From IMG/VR virus record IMGVR_UViG_3300010885_012453, positions 1 through 29,419 of that record: a stretch of DNA of 29,419 nucleotides. One strand, written 5' to 3'. The notes under the pieces were generated by a model. The model had not been told where the DNA came from and searched no databases. It saw only the letters and a list, made by a program, of their open reading frames with translations. Shown piece by piece: positions 1,732 to 18,120 of the stretch (positions within the stretch are counted from its first letter, which is position 1; every line of letters starts with the position of its first letter). The position numbers and the translations under genes are program-made. Source of the stretch: a virus.

Positions 1732-1788
1732 ATTGTCTGTAGCCCCATGCTCGTTACTAGTATTTACCGTAACGATAAATATATTACT
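1732..1788. promoter_or_regulatory. Divergent promoter region with T4-late-like elements
   Basis: This 57-bp gap separates the minus-strand fibre pair from the plus-strand neck operon. On the minus strand it reads GGTAAATACTAGT at 1768-1756, close to the T4 late promoter consensus TATAAATACTATT. A start about seven bases downstream of the 8-mer would leave a leader of roughly 23 bases before the ATG at 1731. On the plus strand GATAAATA lies at 1774-1781, matching the NATAAATA form described for T4-like cyanophages. However, it sits only eight bases before the ATG at 1789, so any transcript from it would be nearly leaderless. The assignment rests on motif resemblance only. Confidence 0.45.
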
Positions 1789-3363: not shown

Positions 3364-4709
3364 TGGAATGGTTTTATGATGGTCAGATTCGACGCTATGT
3401 CGGTCAACTAATCCGCATGTTAAGCGGCTACAAATACCAAGACGGCACTGGTAAACAGATTGTTGTGCCTGTACTATACGGAGATATGAGTCGTCAAGTT
3501 GCTAGTATACTAAATTCCAACAGTGAAAACAAACTGCCAAGTGCGCCACGTATTGCTGTTTATATCAGTAACGTACAATTGGATCGTAGTCGACTAGCCG
3601 ATGCCACACATATTAGTAAAGTACATATTCGTGAACGTGAAAAAGTCTATGATAACACCGGAGCATTTTTAGGCTACAATCAAAATCAAGGCAGTGGATA
3701 TACTGTAGAACGACTAATGCCCACGCCCTACAAGTTAACAGTTAAAGCTGACATATGGTCAACTAACACAGATCAAAAACTACAGATCATGGAACAGATT
3801 ATGATGATGTTTAATCCCAGTCTTGAACTACAGACTACAGATAACTTTGTAGATTGGACTAGCCTAAGTGTTGTTGAACTAACTGACATCACTTTTACTA
3901 GCAGGCAAGTTCCACAGGGTACAGAAAGCGAAATAGATATTGGTACGCTAACATTAGAAACTCCCATCTGGATCAGTGCTCCTAGCAAGGTCAAACGTCT
4001 TGGTGTTATTCATGATATTGTAATGAACATACACGATAACGAATATACATTTGAAACACAAGAGACTGTTACAATTGGCGGGTTTAATATATTTGTGTTC
4101 AATGAAGGTGGCAATTACTACGCAGAATTACTAGACCCCAGCGCAATTATAGAAGCACTACCGGACATTGGCGATACGCTATGGAAAAAACACGGTAATG
4201 ACTTAGACTGGCGCTTGTTATTAGATCAGTACACTAACTTTAAGGCAGGATCTAGTCAGTTATTTCTAACACAGCCTAACGGCAACGAAGTTATAGGCAC
4301 CGTAGCACTTAATCCGGTAAATGAAACTAGATTAAGTATTACATTTGACAAGGATACCTACAATACTAATACAGTTATTGCAGGTCCTGCACGTAATAGT
4401 AATAATTGGGGTACAGTGGATGCCATTGTTAATCCTGAAACTTACAATCCAGGAACACCTTTAGAAGGTCAACGTGTGTTATTGTTAAATGATATACCTG
4501 AAAATACATCGGCATGGAATGCCTTTACAGCACCTGCTAATAGTATTGTAGAATTTGACGGCGCTGTATGGACTAAACTAGTGCCACCCGAAGGCATTGT
4601 CTATACTACAAACATTCGCACTGGCGTACAATACAAGTACGAAGACGGTGAGTGGACTCGTGCATTTGAGGGTGACTATTCAAAAGGATCCTGGCGCCTA
4701 GTAATCTAA
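3363..4709 (+). CDS. 15: gp15-like tail completion and sheath stabiliser protein
   Basis: Residues 1-218 resemble gp15 of T4-like phages: DGQIRRYVGQLIRML near the start, then PVLYGDMSRQVASIL, NSENKLPSAPRIAVY, TVERLMPTPYKLTV, DNFVDWTSLS and ETPIWISAPSKVKRLG. In T4, gp15 caps the finished tail, stabilises the sheath and contacts the neck. The C-terminal half, about 230 residues, is an extension with LLDQYTNFKAG and later LLLNDIP...FDGAVWTKL, TGVQYKYEDGEW and YSKGSWRLVI. Extensions of this type occur in marine T4-like relatives. The gene overlaps the gp14-like stop by one base and has a GAGG ribosome site in the end of that gene, so the two are coupled. Neck-tail joining is thus encoded as one unit. 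Confidence 0.85.
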   Translation: MEWFYDGQIRRYVGQLIRMLSGYKYQDGTGKQIVVPVLYGDMSRQVASILNSNSENKLPSAPRIAVYISNVQLDRSRLADATHISKVHIREREKVYDNTGAFLGYNQNQGSGYTVERLMPTPYKLTVKADIWSTNTDQKLQIMEQIMMMFNPSLELQTTDNFVDWTSLSVVELTDITFTSRQVPQGTESEIDIGTLTLETPIWISAPSKVKRLGVIHDIVMNIHDNEYTFETQETVTIGGFNIFVFNEGGNYYAELLDPSAIIEALPDIGDTLWKKHGNDLDWRLLLDQYTNFKAGSSQLFLTQPNGNEVIGTVALNPVNETRLSITFDKDTYNTNTVIAGPARNSNNWGTVDAIVNPETYNPGTPLEGQRVLLLNDIPENTSAWNAFTAPANSIVEFDGAVWTKLVPPEGIVYTTNIRTGVQYKYEDGEWTRAFEGDYSKGSWRLVI

Positions 4710-4722
4710 AATAAGTACATAC

Positions 4723-5157
4723 ATGAAAGAACAGATTGTATGCAGTGGCGCCTTATTTTACGCTAAATCAACTCGACGTTTTCTACTGCTACAAAAAGCA
4801 GAAGGTAAACACGCAGGTACATGGGGTCTAGTTGGCGGTACTAATATAGAAGGTGAGTCAGCGTGGCAAGGACTGCAACGAGAAATAGTTGAAGAGATAG
4901 GTCTTATGCCCACTATTCTTAAAACAATTCCTCTTGAGACATTTGTAAGTAACGATACTGTATTCAACTTTCACACTTATCTATGTGTTATTGACTTGGA
5001 GTTTGTGCCAGTATTAAGCAACGAACATGCAGGTTGGGCATGGGCAACTATAGACCATGCTCCTAAGCCTCTACATCAAGGACTACGTAATAGTTTCAGC
5101 AGTAAGATCATTCGTACTAAACTGCAAACTGTATTCGACTTAATTGAATTAATATGA
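4723..5157 (+). CDS. Nudix hydrolase
   Basis: A complete Nudix box is present: G39-x5-E45-x7-R53-E-I-V-E-E-I-G-L61, matching GX5EX7REUXEEXGU. The glutamates of REIVEE would bind the metal ions needed to hydrolyse a nucleoside diphosphate linked to another group X. At 144 residues it is a single-domain enzyme. The GTWGLVGG segment before the box is also usual. The substrate cannot be read from the sequence: dNTP-like compounds, NAD-type molecules or capped RNA 5' ends are all possible in this family. It lies 13 bases after the gp15-like gene and shares an ATGA overlap with the following oxygenase, so it is probably expressed with late structural genes. That is an odd place for a nucleotide enzyme. 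Confidence 0.9.
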   Translation: MKEQIVCSGALFYAKSTRRFLLLQKAEGKHAGTWGLVGGTNIEGESAWQGLQREIVEEIGLMPTILKTIPLETFVSNDTVFNFHTYLCVIDLEFVPVLSNEHAGWAWATIDHAPKPLHQGLRNSFSSKIIRTKLQTVFDLIELI

Positions 5158-5810
5158 TAAAAACATTTGCTAGTCCTCCTAAAAACAACTACTTTGCGCC
5201 CGAGTGGCGCTTTGATTTTTATGAAACTAATTTAAATAATCCACAGTTAGTAGAAGAAATTAGACAGCTTATACTAGTTAAAGAACAAGAAATTATTAAT
5301 GCAAATCCAATAGTAACACACGACGGTGGCACAGGGCTAGGAGCTGATAGTTTAACTGCTAGATTTCCGTTCTTTAATATTTTTAACTGGACTGAAGAGC
5401 CCATTGTCAAGTTCCAAGACTACGTTAAAGAACAATACTGTAATTTTTTAAAAGAAATCAATGTTGAACAGCAACCTGTTTATATTGGATGCTGGGCAAA
5501 TGTCATGCGTTTTGGACAGCGTATTCAGCCTCACTGGCATAGTTGTTTTGCTGACAGTTACATAGGCGGGCATTTTGTTGTTGCTACAGAACGTACATCA
5601 ACGCTGTATCAGAATCCACATAATCCCAACGAACAATTTATATTTGAAAATAACCCAGGAAGTTTAACATTCTTCCCCAGTTATCTAATGCACTGGACCA
5701 CTGAGTACCTTGGTGATCAAGAGCGTATTACTATTGCGTTTGATATTGTTACAGAAAACTACATAAAAAAATTCCCTGAACATGCAGGGAATTATATTAA
5801 ATTTGATTAA
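5154..5810 (+). CDS. 2OG-Fe(II) oxygenase (2OG-FeII_Oxy_5-like)
   Basis: The 218-residue protein fits the phage and bacterial 2OG-Fe(II) oxygenase family with the core HxH...FPSxLxH...R. Here I see H127-W-H129, then GSLTFFPSYLMH with H180, and R191 in ERITIAFDI. The histidines would hold iron and the arginine would bind 2-oxoglutarate. A SYIGGHFVV strand after the first motif corresponds to the SGVYYV strand of the family. Such enzymes hydroxylate proteins or small molecules, and the substrate here is unknown. The start overlaps the Nudix stop by four bases (ATGA). The 3' end meets a convergent gene and contains a terminator hairpin inside its last codons. Confidence 0.8.
   Translation: MIKTFASPPKNNYFAPEWRFDFYETNLNNPQLVEEIRQLILVKEQEIINANPIVTHDGGTGLGADSLTARFPFFNIFNWTEEPIVKFQDYVKEQYCNFLKEINVEQQPVYIGCWANVMRFGQRIQPHWHSCFADSYIGGHFVVATERTSTLYQNPHNPNEQFIFENNPGSLTFFPSYLMHWTTEYLGDQERITIAFDIVTENYIKKFPEHAGNYIKFD
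5765..5793 (-). terminator. Hairpin terminator between convergent genes
   Basis: Arms AATTCCCTG (5770-5778) and CAGGGAATT (5785-5793) form a perfect 9-bp stem with a 6-base loop. Read on the minus strand, the hairpin is followed by a run of U from 5769 down to 5765 and lies 14 bases after the stop of the minus-strand oxygenase at 5807. That is the form of an intrinsic terminator. On the plus strand the same hairpin falls in the last codons of the opposing oxygenase and is followed by an A/T-rich but mixed tail, so it may work there only weakly. Confidence 0.75.
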
Positions 5811-6475
5811 CTGTGCGTTGCCCGCAACATTAACTCAGTCAACATATCTCGCTCACCTAATGACATTACTGGCACGGCGTTCATAGCCAGACTCCATCGT
5901 GTTTCGTCATTTTGATTTTCTGGAACACTATGTCCTAGATAGCTTGGAAATATTACTAGATCTCCAGTTTCTACTTGAACATCAATCCAGTCGTAGGCAT
6001 AAAAGTTCTTGCTAGCAGAATCAGAATCAATAGACGGTTCCATATAATATGTATTATTACCAACTGGTTTAAATTTATGAAATCTAATCATTCCGTAATT
6101 CTGCGGAAGGTCCATATAAAATACCGCAGACACGATTGAATTAGGATGTGCATGAAGATGTGTACCTTCGTTTTTTCTATTTTGATTAACCCAGCTTTGT
6201 GTCAACTGCGCCGGGTAAGAGTAAGACAATACGTCTTTCATATATTCAGAAATTTTAGATTCAAGATATACTCTAAGTTCTAAAACACCTGGCATTTCTA
6301 AACAATAACTATTAGATGATTTTAAATGTGTCGGATAATGTCCGCCGTTAGTTGGCACCATGTCTAATGTCTTTAAAACTTCTATTGCCTGACTAAAGTC
6401 TTGTCCCTTTAATAGAATTTTAACTACTGGGATTGGGAACAATCCCATAATATCTTCTGGTTTTATAAATTGCAT
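5807..6475 (-). CDS. 2OG-Fe(II) oxygenase (2OG-FeII_Oxy_5-like), second copy
   Basis: This 222-residue protein carries the same family core as the plus-strand oxygenase but is clearly diverged from it. Visible elements are H106-L-H108-A-H110-PNS, the strand IVSAVFYMDLP, then GDLVIFPSYLGHSVPENQ with H182, and R193 in ETRWSLAMNAV. Iron would be held by the early and late histidines, and R193 should bind the 2-oxoglutarate carboxylate. The start codon overlaps the upstream gene's stop as TAATG and is preceded by GGAGAG, a good ribosome site. The TAA stop shares the TTAA at 5807-5810 with the opposing gene. The two enzymes probably act on different substrates, since their central regions differ, but this is inferred. 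Confidence 0.85.
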   Translation of the reverse strand: MQFIKPEDIMGLFPIPVVKILLKGQDFSQAIEVLKTLDMVPTNGGHYPTHLKSSNSYCLEMPGVLELRVYLESKISEYMKDVLSYSYPAQLTQSWVNQNRKNEGTHLHAHPNSIVSAVFYMDLPQNYGMIRFHKFKPVGNNTYYMEPSIDSDSASKNFYAYDWIDVQVETGDLVIFPSYLGHSVPENQNDETRWSLAMNAVPVMSLGERDMLTELMLRATHS

Positions 6476-7188
6476 TATTTTCTCTCCAATACTGATCTTG
6501 ATCGTCTGTATAAATTTTCAAACGTCCAATTAAATCTTTCCACATGTTTTTTATAAATGTGTTCGTTCATTTCTTCAATCGTTAGTTCTATTTCTACATC
6601 TTCTGTTGGTATTAAATGTAGCATAGGTGTACCTGCTTCTATTTTAATTTCACTTGCTTGATTGTTTGTTACTGGTGGTAAAAACATCTGTAAATGACTA
6701 CCGTGTTGATATTTAAATTCCAACATACCCGGAGCAATAATATATTCTCCTGGATTTTCTTGATGCCATGTTGGTGCTATTGCTACAAAAGGTACTGGTC
6801 TATCTGCTACAATAAACCACGGACTTAGTATCTTAAGATGTGTCCATCCTGGAAAAGCCCCGGTCCATTGATCCGGATTATGAGTTTCATGTGTCCGTAC
6901 ATTTGCAGGACACTTTACGCCCTTAACTGCACCACTTTCTAAGCGTTCGATAACATGATCATACCACATGGGTATAGTTATGCCGGCAGTAAATAGATGC
7001 TGTAGTCCTGGACACATCTTTGTAGTAGGCATTCTAGTAGGTGCACCAACGTCTTTGTAAGGTGCCATTTCTTTAAACCACTTGGGCTGTAGTTTTTTAG
7101 AATGTTCTATTGGAAAGTAATCAACTAAGTGCGGATTAAGAGGATAACATCTTAGCTGTAATTTATTATTTTTGCGTTTGAAAAGCAA
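6475..7188 (-). CDS. Conserved phage protein of unknown function (possible cupin-like fold)
   Basis: I recognise a pattern seen in uncharacterised proteins of marine T4-like phages: P-x-W-F near residues 35-38 (QPKWFKEMAP), then TTKMCPGLQHLFTAGITIPMW with C59 and W75. A second region, TWHQENPGEYIIAPGMLEF and a later GTPMLHLIP, could belong to a cupin-type beta barrel, though I cannot prove this. It may fall in or near DUF6065; I am not certain of that name. The start is TTG at 7188, preceded by AAGGAAA at a suitable distance, and it overlaps the upstream oxygenase by 23 bases. The gene lies between two 2OG oxygenases in the same direction, so a shared pathway is plausible. I assign no function. 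Confidence 0.6.
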   Translation of the reverse strand: MLFKRKNNKLQLRCYPLNPHLVDYFPIEHSKKLQPKWFKEMAPYKDVGAPTRMPTTKMCPGLQHLFTAGITIPMWYDHVIERLESGAVKGVKCPANVRTHETHNPDQWTGAFPGWTHLKILSPWFIVADRPVPFVAIAPTWHQENPGEYIIAPGMLEFKYQHGSHLQMFLPPVTNNQASEIKIEAGTPMLHLIPTEDVEIELTIEEMNEHIYKKHVERFNWTFENLYRRSRSVLERK

Positions 7189-7801
7189 CGTTGTTTCCTT
7201 TAAAATAGTTAAACCAGCCGGTAATAATATATTTGTCTTCAGTCATAGCAGGAATGCCTCTATGAGTGTATGTCCAGTCTGCTGGAAATATTGTTGTTAG
7301 TCCTTTGACGGGCTTTATTTTTAGTTCTTGGTGATAAAACTCTGTTTCTCCGTCTTGTTCTACGTCATTTAAGTATGTCATAAAAACAAGATGTCTAGAC
7401 ACAATAGGATACTCTACCCCGTGTCTTTCACAGTGCCATTCTTTGTAGCCGCCACCCGGGCCGTAGTGTTGAATGTTAACACCATCTACTACACTCCATG
7501 CGGCTTGACTATTACATCTAGGAAATAATTTTACATATTCATCAACTACTTCTTGCAGTAATACTAGATAATCTAAAAAAACATCGTCTTTATCTGTTGG
7601 CCAAAATACTATATCTGTTGAGTCTTTAACATGTGTGCGTACTGTTTCGACACCGTCACCACTCATAATTTTTCCAATTTCTTTTCTATCAGACTTTTTA
7701 TAAAATTCGATTAATCGGTCACAGATTGTAGTGTCCGTTAGAGTCCAAGAACGGATAAAATTTTCATTTTTAAGAGTCAATGGAAAAGGAGTAGGAGTCA
7801 T
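7166..7801 (-). CDS. Prolyl-4-hydroxylase-like 2OG-Fe(II) oxygenase
   Basis: The 211-residue sequence has the P4H-like core of cyanophage 2OG oxygenases: GYKEWHCERHG with H123 and E125, RHLVFMTYLNDV, GETEFYHQELKIKPVKG, then IFPADWTYTHRG with H180 and K190 in KYIITGWF. The iron triad would be H123, E125 and H180, an HxE variant of the common HxD, and K190 would bind 2-oxoglutarate. Substrates could be prolines in proteins or other molecules, and nothing in the sequence decides. The ATG at 7801 lies at the edge of a strong inverted repeat that also contains the only good ribosome site, AAGGAG. Translation may therefore be controlled by RNA folding. A TTG-start gene overlaps its 3' end. Confidence 0.85.
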   Translation of the reverse strand: MTPTPFPLTLKNENFIRSWTLTDTTICDRLIEFYKKSDRKEIGKIMSGDGVETVRTHVKDSTDIVFWPTDKDDVFLDYLVLLQEVVDEYVKLFPRCNSQAAWSVVDGVNIQHYGPGGGYKEWHCERHGVEYPIVSRHLVFMTYLNDVEQDGETEFYHQELKIKPVKGLTTIFPADWTYTHRGIPAMTEDKYIITGWFNYFKGNNVAFQTQK

Positions 7802-7831
7802 ATAAATTACTTATGTTGACTCGTACTCCTT
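7786..7831 (-). promoter_or_regulatory. Inverted repeat over the start of the oxygenase gene
   Basis: In the minus-strand mRNA, AAGGAGTACGAGTCA (7831-7817) can pair with TGACTCCTACTCCTT (7800-7786), giving 14 of 15 pairs around one C-C mismatch and a 16-base loop. The 5' arm contains AAGGAG, the best ribosome binding site nearby. The 3' arm begins at the second base of the ATG start codon and covers codons 1-5. Folding would hide the AAGGAG, so this looks like a translational control hairpin. I cannot tell what would open it. Confidence 0.6.
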
Positions 7832-7846
7832 AATGAGTGATTGTGA

Positions 7847-8050
7847 CTAACTAGCTTTCCATTTGCCTATAGGACATTCTTTTGGTTTGTATATTGCTAT
7901 GGTTGAAACAGCACAAAAACATTTACCGCACAACATTTTTTTAAGTATTACAAACTCACAATTTTTGCAAGTTTCTTTTCTTGTTTGGTAAACTTCTTTA
8001 GTTGTAAAAATATCTGTGCCAAAAATTTTATCAAACGTTGATTCATCCAT
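7847..8050 (-). CDS. Small cysteine-rich, probable zinc-binding protein
   Basis: The 67-residue protein has six cysteines in a zinc-ribbon-like layout: C28-K-N-C31, C41-G-K-C44-F-C46 and C59-P-I-G-K-W. The CxxC...CGKCxC...CPxGKW pattern recurs in small proteins of T4-like marine phages, where the cysteines should bind one or two zinc ions. No enzyme motif or membrane segment is visible. It starts two bases after the stop of the 57-residue gene and lies 45 bases before the hairpin-controlled oxygenase. A role in binding a partner protein or nucleic acid is possible but not shown. Confidence 0.75.
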   Translation of the reverse strand: MDESTFDKIFGTDIFTTKEVYQTRKETCKNCEFVILKKMLCGKCFCAVSTIAIYKPKECPIGKWKAS

Positions 8051-17189: not shown

Positions 17190-18120
17190 TTATCTTTGTC
17201 CGAAATATACTAAAGCAACTGGTGCTCCATCTATCCCGCCTGTGAACAGCATCTTACTACTTACGTAGATTTGTGCATTGTTAGTATTACTTATCGTATT
17301 TCCAGCAATGTATATCTGTCCTGAAGTTATTGTATTTACGTTCAGCGAACTCTGACCGCCACCAATTTGTGCTGTAATAAACGCTTTAATAGCCTTTTGT
17401 GTAGGTACTACACCGTCGCTGTTAGCTGTAAAGTACGGATCTGTTGAGAACTGATAAATCGTTGCTGAACCAACTCCCAAACTAACTGATCCAAGTGTCA
17501 AACTCTGTAGTCCTGACAAGTTAAACGCACTAGCGTTCAATGTAGCAGTACCAGTTGACTGTTGTACTCCGAACAAGTTACCAACGTTAAAGTTACCGTC
17601 TTGGTCGGTACTTGTAAAGAACACTCGTCCACCGCCCACAAACAACTGCTGGTTAGCCGATACTGCCTTAGTAGCATCAACATATGGATAGTTAGTTGCT
17701 GAGAATCCACCAGTACCAATGTACAAGAAGTCATGTCCAGTTAAACGAACGTTACTATATGACAAGTTTGTTGTGATTAAGTCATTGTGTGACGGAGCAG
17801 TTAGTGTTGTTAATCCCGGATTAATCTGGAATGTTGCACTGTAGTTACCTGCAATACCCGTCACGTTTGTTACGCTAACTAGTTTATACCAACGACTTGT
17901 TCCAAGAATACTGCTGAACACTACGTTACACCCTGGTGTTGGTATTTGATATAGTCCACTTACGTTGACATATGTACCTACTTGATACAAATCAGCATAA
18001 CCGTCGCCTGCGTAACTTGCTGTAGCAGTTGTGTTAGCAGTACCACGATGAGCAAAACTTGGATTACCTAGTGCTCCGTTACCAGTACGTGCGGCTAACG
18101 GTGCTGTGTTAACCTTGTTA
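17190..18120 (-). repeat. C-terminal fibre domain, copy A (end of giant adhesin)
   Basis: This codes roughly the last 310 residues: NGALGNPSFAHRGT, GDGYADLYQVG, LTGHDFLYIGTGGFSATNYP, VFFTSTDQDGNFNVGNLFGV, FNLSGLQSLTLG and VVPTQKAIKAFITAQI. It aligns from end to end with the C-terminus of the gene at 27311, although the two share only part of their residues. Confidence 0.8.

Follow-up and report, generated by a model that had tools for sequence, protein, structure and literature searches.

In phages of the T4 type, some late genes lying on long early transcripts are silenced by a helix that covers the translation start, and the late transcripts begin inside this same helix (PMC3014915; PMC2988022). 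In the case of T4 gene e such a helix cuts synthesis 100-fold (PMC3014915). Since start-blocking hairpins have long been described in this group of phages, the control considered here, which the original prediction supposed to be undescribed for a phage oxygenase, is new only as regards the gene carrying the hairpin, namely a 2OG-Fe(II) oxygenase. If functional, the hairpin would show that translational silencing in the T4 style reaches beyond lysis, recombination, and homing genes and includes an auxiliary oxygenase of an uncultured phage, and it would suggest that the timing of oxygenase synthesis matters.

Genomic setting of the oxygenase gene

Marine phages very commonly encode oxygenases of the 2OG-Fe(II) family. 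The window analyzed here, a 29.4-kb stretch (29,419 nt) of an uncultured virus, encodes neck and tail genes of the T4 type, and the nearest counterparts of its gp15-like tail-sheath stabilizer come from jumbo phages, among them Sinorhizobium phage Phosso and Agrobacterium phage Atu_ph07, at 31-33% identity. On the minus strand, tail-fibre-like genes are followed by genes for a 57-aa protein, for a 67-aa Cys-rich (zinc) protein (7847-8050; phrog_13558, E 5.5e-10; weakly DUF6171-like, with PF19668 at 25.2 bits under the cut-off of 27), and for a prolyl 4-hydroxylase-like 2OG-Fe(II) oxygenase of 211 aa (7166-7801; PF13640, E 1.9e-10; phrog_61, E 5e-43), the ATG of which lies 45 nt from the end of the Cys-rich gene. 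The upstream codirected genes are separated by small gaps, and no terminator was scored between them and the oxygenase, longer transcripts from upstream being only predicted. Further downstream follow a protein with no assigned function, a second 2OG oxygenase, and a plain intrinsic terminator (5793-5770, minus strand) located directly after the gene ending at 5807, the third of this run; this terminator served as the yardstick for terminators. Altogether, three distinct 2OG-Fe(II) oxygenase genes lie within 2.7 kb of the window (5154-7801); the two on the minus strand and the single one on the plus strand converge at 5807-5810.

The ATG at 7801 is very probably the true start of the first minus-strand oxygenase, since its homologues within the subfamily begin 10-13 residues before a conserved Phe-Ile and here this distance is 14. 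The alternative TTG at 7780 was rejected, as it has no SD-like bases ahead of it and would give a product shorter than the subfamily N-terminus.

An inverted repeat over the translation start

The predicted 15-bp inverted repeat with one mismatch is indeed present at this start, 14 of 15 positions being complementary with a single C/C mismatch. Its left (5′) arm, AAGGAGTACGAGTCA (7831-7817, minus strand), includes AAGGAG; the 16-nt loop, ACATAAGTAATTTATA (7816-7801), carries UAAG (7813-7810), the octamer CATAAGTA (7815-7808), and the A of the ATG; the right (3′) arm, TGACTCCTACTCCTT (7800-7786), comprises the UG of the start codon, codons 2-5, and the first base of codon 6. Codons 2-5 specify TPTP by means of ACTCCT repeated twice in tandem (ACTCCTACTCCT). 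Thus, the ATG was rightly placed at the loop edge as far as its unpaired A is concerned, whereas the UG sits in the stem, and of the paired coding bases attributed to codons 1-5, codon 1 contributes this UG only. The idea that the hairpin hides both the ribosome site and the start holds for the start codon; the ribosome site is doubtful, because the 24 nt between the end of AAGGAG and the ATG exceed the spacing of an ordinary Shine-Dalgarno sequence. The sole SD-like bases at normal spacing are the weak UAAG of the loop, and other genes of the phage mostly have GGA, GAG, or AAGG 6-12 nt before the start. An identical UAAGUA occurs at the same place before the NUDIX gene starting at 4723, so that ATAAGTA precedes by 12-13 nt both this start (4711-4717, plus strand) and that of the oxygenase (7814-7808, minus strand); it may represent either a weak SD (UAAG) common to both genes or a variant form of promoter.

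The predicted folding energy of the hairpin RNA at 37 C is between -18.2 and -18.7 kcal/mol; at 20 C it reaches about -25 kcal/mol. The folding envisaged for the minus-strand RNA of 7860-7760 came out as stable (-21.4 kcal/mol, z -3.0), with none of 200 shuffles equaling it, and, for the start region from -45 to +25, none of the window's 17 gene starts is as extreme as that of the oxygenase (-19.5, z -5.7). The UG of the AUG is paired with a probability above 0.93 (-18.7 kcal/mol, 37 C). To open the segment from -15 to +12 would take 14.3 kcal/mol at 37 C, the highest value among 16 genes of the window, and 18.2 at 20 C, while for RNAs beginning at 7816 or later the start is predicted to be unstructured.

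This hairpin is the sole inverted repeat of such quality in the window. Dinucleotide shuffles of the whole window gave on average 0.19 equally good repeats, with at least one in 9% of shuffles, and 339 kb of fetched phage DNA with 346 starts contained two; only the hairpin described here overlaps a start. Strong folding at a start is in itself no great rarity, values at or below -19.5 being found for 9 of the 346 fetched starts, several of them in GC-richer DNA. For a chance repeat landing on a start, which the original prediction regarded as unlikely, the probability is by rough estimate below 1%, but the site was picked after the fact.

Proposed repression of T4 type and competing explanations

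The most likely function, proposed tentatively, is repression of the T4 kind, with the hairpin folding in the cell and acting in cis on oxygenase initiation from read-through mRNA. The message would extend from the tail-fibre and zinc-protein genes upstream into the oxygenase, and its upstream arm would pair with the UG of the AUG and with codons 2-5, so that initiation is repressed. Derepression, on which the model is weaker, might be achieved in RNAs missing the left arm due to a transcript start in or after 7831-7817 or to processing there, or alternatively by ribosomes re-initiating from upstream.

As a positive control, 63 starts were folded in a 31-kb stretch of T4. Three genes with reported start hairpins came near the top, namely segB (-19.4, z -6.4), 49 (-16.4), and e (-14.9), and the oxygenase falls in a similar range; the capacity to block the start is therefore well supported energetically, as a potential. 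Opening cost is slightly lower for the oxygenase (14.3 vs 16.8-19.3 for the T4 genes reported as hairpin-blocked). The start-fold measure is not specific, since T4 regB, nrdC.8, 1, and rI score high as well, in the absence of such a report. A stable hairpin over the translation start is what the locus shares with T4 e, soc, 49, I-TevI, and segB and with Aeh1 mobE; it also belongs to a T4-related myovirus, the gene is preceded by codirected ones, and the start-region energy falls in the same range. It differs in that the start and early codons are paired, that the 5′ arm offers no clear late promoter, and that the gene encodes an oxygenase. The SD lies in the 3′ part of the structure in T4 segB, 49, and e, whereas here AAGGAG belongs to the far 5′ arm.

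The other half of the T4 mechanism, a late promoter removing the left arm, is not convincing. Boxes of the GATAAAYA type, likely to be T4-type late promoters of this phage, were found 19-29 nt before structural genes at 27291-27284 and 17194-17187 (minus strand) and at 1774-1781 (plus strand, ahead of a likely true start at about 1793), with GATAAACA as the sequence at 17194 and GATAAATA at the other two. Exact ATAAATA occurs only twice in the window, each time before a structural gene. No good late promoter was revealed in the left arm and loop, where CATAAGTA matches the GATAAAYA-type boxes of the phage at no more than 6 of 8 positions.

The most serious rival states that the hairpin is a non-functional by-product of tandem duplication of ACTCCT, or of arm copying by template switching, in one lineage, perhaps dampening expression without regulating it. 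We consider this rather unlikely, though it has to be taken seriously, as no evidence points to selection acting on the stem. The two extra N-terminal residues would fit a tandem duplication that also lengthened the right arm, the repeat being probably lineage-specific: ACTCCTACTCCT yields TPTP, and homologues such as L040 (MTPHEIN...) and L010 (MKEFSLP...) start 2-4 residues later. The frequency of equally good repeats in shuffled windows also speaks for a by-product, and so does confinement of the hairpin to one near-identical pair of contigs. Against it stand the placement of the hairpin exactly on the start and the cost of opening, which ought to impair expression severely unless some bypass existed.

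As to this confinement, only one public viral contig has the region, with a single difference in 6,633 bases, at 4206, outside the hairpin. No such hairpin was detected at the starts of about 60-80 homologous oxygenase loci (36-55% identity for the aligned ones). Searches of viral contigs with the zinc protein, the next gene, and the arm pattern gave nothing beyond the near-identical contig; no relative with the hairpin or its neighbors came from a search of host genomes, and none from a DNA search of phage records. Since no relative shows it, the hairpin is a trait of one lineage and says little about the oxygenase family. The structures of T4 genes 25 and e are likewise absent from more distant T4-type phages (PMC3014915), so that failure to find the hairpin in distant relatives argues only weakly in either direction.

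Considerably less probable is that the hairpin terminates or attenuates transcription between the two cistrons, or shields the 3′ end of the upstream mRNA, and overlaps the next start by happenstance. The stem is followed by CCTTTTCC and lies 15-16 nt past the upstream stop codon, and just before the oxygenase start a plain terminator is present in homologous locus L026 and hairpins in L042 and L071. The hairpin shares with the L026-type terminators its location in the gap ahead of the oxygenase, but departs from them in its poor T tail (merely 2-4 T after the stem, TTTTCC), in its long loop, and in the right arm lying within the coding sequence. Its d'Aubenton-type score lies between -20 and -3, compared with +18 to +31 for the yardstick terminator (5793-5770), and it is absent from the terminator scan, which, however, allows loops only up to 8 nt against 16 here.

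A timing switch, by which the oxygenase would stay silent on read-through mRNA and be translated from a late transcript starting at about 7802 from the CATAAGTA box, is improbable; this box is only weakly like a T4 late promoter (6/8 to GATAAATA) and would yield a nearly leaderless mRNA. It is very improbable that AAGGAG is the real ribosome site of a split Shine-Dalgarno arrangement, with folding of the spacer bringing the ATG near. The sequence is strong, and its 24-nt spacing falls between those of T4 genes 38 (22) and 25 (27) (PMC3014915), whose SD-like sequences are strong too and stand 20-odd nt ahead of the ATG; the helper structure must, however, leave AAGGAG and AUG free, whereas here both are contained in the structure instead of flanking it. 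By itself the spacer does not fold stably (0 kcal/mol at 37 C; about -0.3 at 20 C), and 19.1 kcal/mol at 37 C (24.3 at 20 C) would be needed to release AAGGAG and AUG from the long stem. Equally remote is a DNA-level operator for a regulator binding GAGTCA/TGACTC, suggested by the palindromic arms, as the window has no second copy except weak matches with 3 mismatches and no recognised promoter is nearby.

Three of the modes of control listed in the original prediction fared poorly. Temperature is an unlikely signal because predicted pairing responds flatly to it, the unpaired fraction of AAGGAG being 0.02-0.08 and AUG pairing nearly constant from 4 to 65 C; an RNA thermometer was thus rejected. 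Control by a small ligand found no support, the Rfam search of the window giving 0 matches above the gathering score, that is, no known riboswitch or RNA family. Opening by the ribosome finishing the zinc-protein gene is unlikely as well: the stop codon (7849-7847) lies 15-16 nt before the stem, and with standard footprint sizes a terminating ribosome would halt a few bases short of it.

tRNA genes and hairpins at related loci

The oxygenase comes straight after a tRNA gene in many relatives (L011, L012, and L065; judging by sequence, also L016, L032, L039, and L061), the tRNA being annotated for L012 and tRNA-like 3′ ends occurring in the others. It looks as if the two had been gained together, or as if tRNA sites served as insertion points. 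The tRNA-Leu in L011, L012, and, by sequence, L065 has the 3′ end CTCCCTACTCCCA or alike, which recalls the right arm. The possibility of a decayed tRNA was rejected and the likeness judged a coincidence, since ARAGORN finds no tRNA in the window, the element is too short, and no T arm is possible.

Two other loci carry an SD or SD-like sequence within a hairpin close to a start. In the oxygenase homologue L042 (1450-1500), CCCCCCTC-TTT-GGAGGGGG stands just before the ATG, with an SD-like GGAGG within the hairpin. In Sinorhizobium phage Phosso (L095, 15395-15430), the gene after the gp15 homologue has its AAGGAG SD inside a strong hairpin immediately before the ATG, TTAAGGATTCCTGGCAAAGGAGTCCTTAATG, making it a cleaner candidate for control of the T4 type.
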